The notes under the pieces were generated by a model. That model had not been told where the DNA came from. It did not search any database and saw only the letters and a program-made list of their open reading frames with translations. DNA of 64,000 nucleotides, from positions 1 through 64,000 of the forward strand of contig NZ_JAERQM010000008.1 of NCBI RefSeq assembly GCF_019029495.1, read 5' to 3'. Source of the stretch: Falsiroseomonas oleicola (GTDB taxonomy: Bacteria > Pseudomonadota > Alphaproteobacteria > Acetobacterales > Acetobacteraceae). The position numbers and the translations under genes were made by a program. Shown one piece after another: positions 42,826 to 51,107 of the stretch. How positions within the stretch are numbered: position 1 is the stretch's first letter; each line of letters begins with the position of its first letter.

Positions 42826-43026
42826 CGGCCAGGACCCGGGCTGGGGTCGATGGTGGTCATGCGCAACAGCCTCCGCGATAGACGATCCGACATCGCGCGG
42901 CTGCGCCAGAGGGGCCCGGACCCGCCGCGCATCTGGCCGCGCGGGCCGCGCGCTTCAAGGGCGGTTGCGTCGCAACCGCGCCCCGCCCCATGCTGGGCCG
43001 AGAGCAATCGTTTGCCGGAGAGAACC

Positions 43027-49917: not shown

Positions 49918-50116
49918 GCGGCATTCCCCAATGACAGGCCGCCGAGGCCGGGCGACCATGGCAGGATCGGCCAAGCGGCGCGGTGGCTCAATGGGGGGAT
50001 GCGGGCTTCTGCCCCTTGGGCCGCAAGGTTGCGCCGCCCCCGCCTGTCCTCTATAGGCCGTTTTCCCGCGCCTGCCGGTCGCTGTCGGTGGGCCCATCAG
50101 CGTGAGCGCCCCTGCG

Positions 50117-50347
50117 ATGAAGCCCGATATCCATCCCGAGTATCACACCATCAACGTCATCATGACGGATGGTTATGCCTATACGACCCGGTCCTGCTAC
50201 GGGAAGGAAGGCGACACCATTCGCCTGGACATCGACCCCAAGTCGCACCCGGCCTGGACCGGCCAGCAGCGCGTGATGGACACGGGCGGCCAGATCGCCA
50301 AGTTCAACAAGAAGTTCGCTGGCCTGGGCATCCGCAAGACCGCCTGA
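50117..50347 (+). CDS. rpmE: 50S ribosomal protein L31
   Basis: 76 aa, matching alphaproteobacterial L31: [44 protein letters not shown], then [16 protein letters not shown]. It lacks the CxxC zinc ribbon of zinc-containing L31, so it is the C- form. ATG 50117 is preferred to a GTG 15 nt upstream from homology. A strong terminator follows. Confidence 0.95.
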
Positions 50348-50420: not shown

Positions 50421-50449
50421 CTTGAAGCCGTTCCGGCGGCTGCCTAACT
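50421..50449 (+). promoter_or_regulatory. candidate RpoH (sigma-32) promoter
   Basis: CTTGAA (50421-50426), 17 nt, then CTAACT (50444-50449), resembling the alphaproteobacterial RpoH pattern CTTGAA-N17-CYTAT. It would start a leader of about 120 nt ahead of the small heat-shock gene. Confidence 0.55.
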
Positions 50450-50455
50450 CCTGCG

Positions 50456-50574
50456 TGCTGGCGGTGCCCGATCGGGGCCGACAGCGCGGAAGCCGGACCA
50501 TGTCGCCCGCTGAGCGGGGGCAGACCACCCGGTGATCCGCCGTGCAACGACCTTGCTACCGCAGGAGGTCTTCC
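50456..50574 (+). promoter_or_regulatory. ROSE-like RNA thermometer, hsp20 leader
   Basis: The leader ends in a hairpin GACCUUGCU-ACCGC-AGGAGGUC (50549-50570). CUUGCU pairs with AGGAG, leaving one unpaired G (50555), exactly the ROSE hallmark U(U/C)GCU opposite the ribosome site. Upstream GC hairpins such as CCCGC-TGA-GCGGG support a multi-hairpin ROSE leader. At low temperature the site is masked; heat opens it. The 5' limit is inferred from the promoter. Confidence 0.75.
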
Positions 50575-51057
50575 GTGAACGCTTTCGATTTCTCGCCCCT
50601 GTTCCGTTCCGCCATCGGTTTCGACCGTATGGCCCGCCTGGTGGAAAACGCCCGCGCGGCGGCGGATGGGCCCAGCTACCCGCCCTACAATATCGAGAAG
50701 ACCGGTGAGGACAGCTACGTGCTGACCATGGCCGTCGCCGGCTTCGGTCCCGACGACATCGAGGTCACGGCGCATGACAACACCCTGACCGTCGCCGGCA
50801 AGGCCGCGCCCGCCCCTGCCAATACCCAGGACAATGGCCGCGTCCTGTATCGTGGCATCGCCGGCCGTGCCTTCGAGCGGCGCTTCGTCCTCGCCGACCA
50901 TATCGTCATCGAGGGCGCGCAGCTTGAACACGGCCTGCTGCATGTGGCGCTGAAGCGCCAGGTGCCGGAGGCGCTGAAGCCGCGCCGGATCGAGATCCAG
51001 GCCCCCAAGACGCAGCGGGTGCTGGAGCAGGCGGCGCCGCAGGCCCAGGCGGCCTGA
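50575..51057 (+). CDS. small heat-shock protein (Hsp20/IbpA-like)
   Basis: 160 aa chaperone that holds unfolding proteins. The alpha-crystallin core begins YPPYNIEKTGEDSYVLTMAVAG and includes VAGKAA and RGIAGRAFERRFVLADHI. Start is GTG 50575, because GCAGGAGG lies 6 nt upstream; homologs begin at the same NAFDFSPLF. Expression is predicted to be heat-induced through an RpoH promoter and a ROSE leader. Terminator directly follows. Confidence 0.93.
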   Translation: MNAFDFSPLFRSAIGFDRMARLVENARAAADGPSYPPYNIEKTGEDSYVLTMAVAGFGPDDIEVTAHDNTLTVAGKAAPAPANTQDNGRVLYRGIAGRAFERRFVLADHIVIEGAQLEHGLLHVALKRQVPEALKPRRIEIQAPKTQRVLEQAAPQAQAA

Positions 51058-51078
51058 GGCCGTCTTCCTTGCCAACCG

Positions 51079-51107
51079 GGCCGGCGGAGCAATCCGCCGG
51101 CCTTTTT
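51079..51107 (+). terminator. intrinsic terminator after hsp20
   Basis: Perfect 10-bp stem, GCAA loop (51079-51088/51093-51102), followed by T5 at 51103-51107. Confidence 0.9.

Follow-up and report, generated by a model that had tools for sequence, protein, structure and literature searches.

Does the DNA ahead of the small heat-shock gene that starts at 50575 in the window (the whole stretch analysed here, 64,000 nucleotides of Falsiroseomonas oleicola, an Acetobacteraceae member with a genome of 5.6 Mb) specify an RNA thermometer, and if so, how is it related to the thermometers already described? The gene is flanked by rpmE and, on the opposite strand, by a DUF1192 gene. The protein read from the GTG at 50575 is an Hsp20 (Pfam, E = 5e-17), and the nearest NCBIfam model is IbpA (E = 7.6e-45), but the match lies under the equivalog cut-off. 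Orthologues share this start residue, encoded by either GTG or ATG; this supports the GTG start and, together with the Pfam match, bears out the GTG-started small heat-shock gene of the initial annotation. The region in question is thus the 5' leader of a small heat-shock gene, as expected of a ROSE-like element. A close orthologue of hsp20 is present in 14 of 15 genomes searched within the genus, and the protein has a match in 145 of 150 Acetobacteraceae genomes. The features of the locus are collected in Table 1. Elsewhere in the window, a terC RNA (Rfam RF03067) is found at 42878–42927 on the minus strand with 47.7 bits, above its cut-off.

Table 1. Features of the hsp20 locus in the window
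Feature	Position	Strand	Basis or remark
rpmE (ribosomal protein L31)	50102–50347		upstream neighbour of hsp20
Sigma-32 (RpoH)-type promoter, CTTGAA-N17-CTAACT	50421–50449	+	conserved in orthologues
5' leader with three-hairpin ROSE-like element, from inferred transcript start to base before GTG	50456–50574	+	match to covariance model R1
Hairpin I, bulged G50466	50457–50485	+	compensatory changes in genus; bulged G invariant
Hairpin II	50486–50540	+	MFE fold; outer stem in genus; family-wide covariation
Hairpin III (SD hairpin), CCUUGCU/AGGAGG, bulged G50555, loop ACCGC	50549–50570	+	sequence; comparative pairing
Shine-Dalgarno AGGAGG	50563–50568	+	sequence; 6 nt ahead of GTG
IbpA-like small heat-shock protein gene	50575–51057	+	GTG start 50575, TGA end; Pfam HSP20
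Intrinsic-terminator-like hairpin, 3' of hsp20	51078–51107	+	pattern scan

As judged from the sequences, the leader of this core ibpA-type hsp20 gene is very probably a ROSE-like RNA thermometer transcribed from an RpoH-type promoter. Its 119 nt would fold into three hairpins, which agrees with the two to four hairpins of conserved structure found in ROSE-like elements, and the conservation is accompanied by compensatory changes described below. The 3'-most hairpin has the sequence GACCUUGCU-ACCGC-AGGAGGUC, also written GAC-CUUGCU-ACCGC-AGGAG-GUC, in which the U(U/C)GCU motif of such elements is imperfectly paired with the Shine-Dalgarno (SD) sequence around a bulged G. Five pairs (50549-50570, 50550-50569, 50551-50568, 50552-50567 and 50553-50566) are followed inwards by a U.G pair (50554.50565), the bulged G and the pairs 50556-50564 and 50557-50563. 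The pairing of CUUGCU with AGGAG around one bulged G and the stem of eight pairs plus the bulge, both noted in the initial annotation, can therefore be followed pair by pair in the sequence. The short stem does not reach the start codon, which is unpaired. In the window genus, hairpin II has two parts, an outer stem and, nested inside it, a CCC/GGG hairpin in which G50505 is bulged.

At low temperature the leader would be folded into the three hairpins, the last of them pairing the SD sequence AGGAGG with CCUUGCU, so that ribosomes could not bind. Heating would open the weak core, where the U.G pair lies beside the bulged G, and translation would start. Transcription is likewise expected to be induced by heat through the RpoH-type promoter. 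For this gene we infer the melting and the translational control; opening of the SD hairpin on heating is experimental in ROSE-like elements elsewhere (PMC3669281, PMC11342760).

The promoter comprises CTTGAA (50421–50426) and CTAACT (50444–50449) separated by a 17-nt spacer, which is the pattern of the RpoH regulon (a CTTGAA-type -35 box, a spacer of about 17 nt and a C-rich/A-T -10 box). Both the pattern and a leader of about 120 nt had been proposed previously, and the coordinates fit. Of the 141 upstream regions taken from orthologues, 122 have CTTG[AC]A at about this distance, in most cases 17 nt ahead of a C/T-A-rich -10 box. Promoters of the same kind precede groES (CTTGAC-N17-CTACAT) and a second hsp20 gene (CTTGCA-N17-CAAAAT) of the same genome, which also contains an rpoH gene. 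RpoH control of hsp20 is likely, because the promoter is conserved and is common to groES and the second hsp20, and because rpoH is present. A search for a sigma-70-type promoter upstream of hsp20 found none.

Two further observations concern these upstream regions. In many Acetobacteraceae a G+C-rich inverted repeat has the CTTGAA -35 box in its loop, for example GCCGCCCC-CTTGAACC-GGGGGGCGGCG-CTTT (the regions include L058, L061, L072, L085, L088 and L095), as if a terminator on the rpmE side and the hsp20 promoter had been fused; the window has no such repeat. The groES upstream region of the window's own genome (L242) contains two CIRCE-like inverted repeats together with the RpoH-type promoter, which suggests double control by HrcA and RpoH.

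The evidence for the hairpins is comparative. Among 141 Acetobacteraceae orthologue leaders extracted for pairing counts, 127 contain UUGC[U/C] facing the SD sequence, and the ROSE-like anatomy with sequestration of the SD sequence, which had been read from the window alone, is thus conserved across the family. The four pairs outside the core form in 127, 125, 116 and 115 of these 127 leaders, whereas the next two pairs further out form in 51 and 50, near the chance level. Pairing falls to background past the eight-pair stem, and the stem accordingly ends where the initial annotation had placed its end. The third pair of hairpin III is C-G in eight and G-C in six genomes of the window genus. 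Much of this hairpin cannot show covariation, because its SD side is constrained anyway.

In 14 sequences of the genus, 98% of the cells of hairpin I are paired, with compensatory changes; the outer stem of hairpin II is 90% paired with five compensatory pairs, its inner stem is less conserved (67% paired), and the family-wide version of hairpin II is strongly covarying. We also aligned 46 Acetobacteraceae leaders, all from outside the window genus (alignment A2). In A2, 93.5% of the cells are paired, 14 pairs have changed on both sides, and there are 89 compensatory cells compared with 24.8 ± 6.7 in shuffles; when the partner is slid by one column, pairing drops to approximately 60%. The A2 leaders were chosen to contain UUGCU, which makes these figures partly circular for hairpin III and not for hairpins I and II. 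Held-out leaders, in an alignment fitted to the model structure, yielded 362 compensatory cells compared with 102.7 in shuffles. The bulged Gs are exceptionally constant: that of hairpin I is present in all 143 aligned leaders (46/46 and 97/97), that of hairpin II in 99 of the 102 leaders where it is aligned, and that of hairpin III in 133 of 136, their equivalents in the window being G50466, G50505 and G50555. In acetic acid bacteria, reading by eye finds GGAUCUGCCU against AGGAGGUUC, with a bulged G kept in another register; leaders of this type, with UGCCU for UUGCU, include L162, L165, L168, L169, L173, L176 and L178.

A covariance model built from A2 (R1) matches the window at 50456–50580 with 46.3 bits (E = 1e-7; next best 0.64). 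In a search of the whole 5.6-Mb genome the window leader is the only match at E ≤ 0.01 (E = 9.1e-6). R1 recovers 88 of 95 held-out orthologues at E ≤ 0.01, and 68 of 80 named relatives match at the same threshold, including Azospirillum, Komagataeibacter and Acetobacter species. Across 385 class-wide genomes there are 17 matches outside the Acetobacteraceae, of which 14 lie immediately ahead of an Hsp20 gene and one ahead of dnaK. The dnaK match (L241, 1501–1603), directly upstream of the gene in a 0.8-Mb alphaproteobacterial genome, would be unusual for a ROSE-like leader. Two of the class-level matches (L233 and L236) are not ahead of heat-shock genes; they are probably due to chance and were rejected as thermometers.

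The Rfam families give a different picture. None of ROSE, ROSE_2 and ROSE_3 reaches its cut-off in the window at gathering or relaxed thresholds: RF00435 matches a 131-nt search sequence at the correct place and strand with 14 bits (E = 4.7; cut-off 45 bits), and neither RF02523 (ROSE_3) nor RF01832 (ROSE_2) matches the window. Above its cut-off, RF02523 is found in 0 of 150 Acetobacteraceae genomes, with sub-threshold matches at a few orthologues, and 0 of 20 named relatives tested pass any Rfam ROSE family. RF00435 is above its cut-off in 16 of the 150 family genomes, at extra hsp20 copies and never at the core hsp20 orthologue; among the R1 matches outside the family, only one (L225) passes it. 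The covariance-model check that had been proposed for this element was therefore answered in two ways, at chance level by Rfam ROSE and positively by R1, which also matches several genuine RF00435 elements, its coordinates coinciding with theirs. Because of these matches, and because the 5' hairpin of the RF00435 consensus is comparable and likewise has a bulged G, the evidence points to the window element and RF00435 as branches of one ROSE-like class, with the window beyond the reach of the present model.

Comparison with described systems places the element more closely. The short ROSE-like thermometers of Pseudomonas ibpA (PMC3669281) share with it the ibpA-type gene, the sigma-32 promoter, a stable G+C-rich 5' hairpin, U(U/C)GCU paired with the SD sequence in a short 3' hairpin, and an unpaired start codon, although they are about 61 nt long with two hairpins, compared with 119 nt and three hairpins in the window. 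RF00435, the rhizobial hspA type, is likewise a small heat-shock leader with a UUGCU/SD core and bulged G, and its 5' hairpin also has one bulged G ahead of CC-loop-GG, but its SD stem is longer and takes in the start codon. As its stem is short and its start codon unpaired, the window resembles the Pseudomonas ibpA type more than the long rhizobial SD stem. ROSE_3 has a similar first hairpin (AUGCC...GGGU) and a similar end at the start codon, whereas the family genomes fall below its cut-off. ROSE-G (PMC12857270) also has a bulged G in the anti-SD strand, but it lies upstream of ABC transporter genes and its motif is CUGCU, with two bulged Gs facing each other; the motif in the window is UUGCU and forms a U.G pair. 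We found no literature on a ROSE element at the core hsp20 gene of Acetobacteraceae, the only related report found being an RF00435 predicted by Rfam ahead of one Hsp20 gene of Gluconobacter oxydans (PMC5756330).

Folding energies add little to this. Single-sequence folding is no better than shuffles (z = -0.88 for the leader and 0.09 for isolated hairpin III), and the support for hairpin III is comparative, not thermodynamic. Moreover, the minimum-energy form of hairpin III pairs UGC (50554–50556) with GCA (50561–50563) and bulges two Gs of the SD sequence; within this stem the ROSE register is the weaker of the two by about 1.8 kcal/mol (-5.7 compared with -7.5 kcal/mol). The hairpin might thus be a register-switching variant of the thermometer, in which the SD sequence is held at low temperature in UGC:GCA (or CUUCC:GGAGG), with the ROSE register as an intermediate or a minor form. 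The loop ends in GC in 53 of 126 sequences, which allows this pairing, and in nearly all 53, the window included, it is stabler than the ROSE register. We nevertheless consider such switching unlikely, since the alternative registers vary between clades and UGC:GCA is absent from most sequences, while the ROSE register is shared, and since nearest-neighbour energies model the ROSE core poorly. Compensatory changes are invisible here because UUGCU is nearly invariant. One could speculate further that the core alphaproteobacterial ibpA carries a distinct, lineage-wide ROSE subfamily, for the most part overlooked by Rfam, with three hairpins that each have a nearly invariant bulged G and with species-dependent register switching of the SD hairpin, a proposal that we also hold to be improbable as a whole. 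If register switching did occur, the working temperature could be tuned by the loop sequence alone.

The SD hairpin could instead act as a temperature-independent damper of translation or as an mRNA stabiliser, heat control being transcriptional only, via RpoH. The RpoH-type promoter alone could account for heat induction, and folding predictions give almost no opening up to 50 °C: the SD accessibility of the wild type computed with ViennaRNA is nearly flat from 20 to 50 °C (0.32 to 0.35), and shuffling the upstream region does not raise it. The flat curve may mean that the energy model reaches its limits with non-canonical cores, or that the hairpin truly does not respond. We regard the damper as very unlikely, because 127 of 141 orthologues retain an imperfect UUGCU/AGGAG core with its bulged G when a perfect stem could easily have evolved, and because the same core responds to heat in the ROSE-like elements that have been tested (PMC3669281, PMC11342760). 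When G50555 is deleted in silico, the SD accessibility predicted at 37 °C falls from 0.34 to 0.01. This agrees with published experiments on bulge deletions, in which removal of the bulged G lowers heat induction (PMC11342760; for P. aeruginosa ibpA, single-nucleotide deletions within the SD hairpin, PMC3669281). In hairpin III a strong SD sequence could have paired with a pyrimidine-rich stretch by chance, as the shuffle results and the 11 genomic occurrences of its core pattern might suggest, but this reading is refuted by the family-wide conservation, the sharp stem boundary, the compensatory change in the genus and the recovery by R1.

The ROSE-like thermometer that we favour is of a known type, and its presence at the core gene of Acetobacteraceae is new and widespread, a conclusion that is well supported. 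In this family, and in several others of the Alphaproteobacteria, the main small heat-shock gene probably has a ROSE-like thermometer that escapes the present Rfam models, which would extend the class well past the annotated cases. The alignment also supplies a set of naturally occurring loop and stem variants with which to study how sequence sets the response temperature.

The core pattern TTGCT-N3..9-AGGAGG occurs 11 times in the 5.6-Mb genome, compared with six times in a control, and only the window copy has the outer C-G, C-G, A-U and G-C pairs with a start codon 6 nt downstream. The other ten copies were rejected as further elements, as none of them combines these outer pairs with a suitable start codon. 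The leader of the second hsp20 gene yielded no match in an R1 search (L002, the same gene as L028). At this gene (L028, G000:C25:127392-127790) a different hairpin lies over the SD sequence, GCUUCGCUCCUGAGCGAGGAGGC, which is seen in several members of the genus and is perhaps another type of thermometer.
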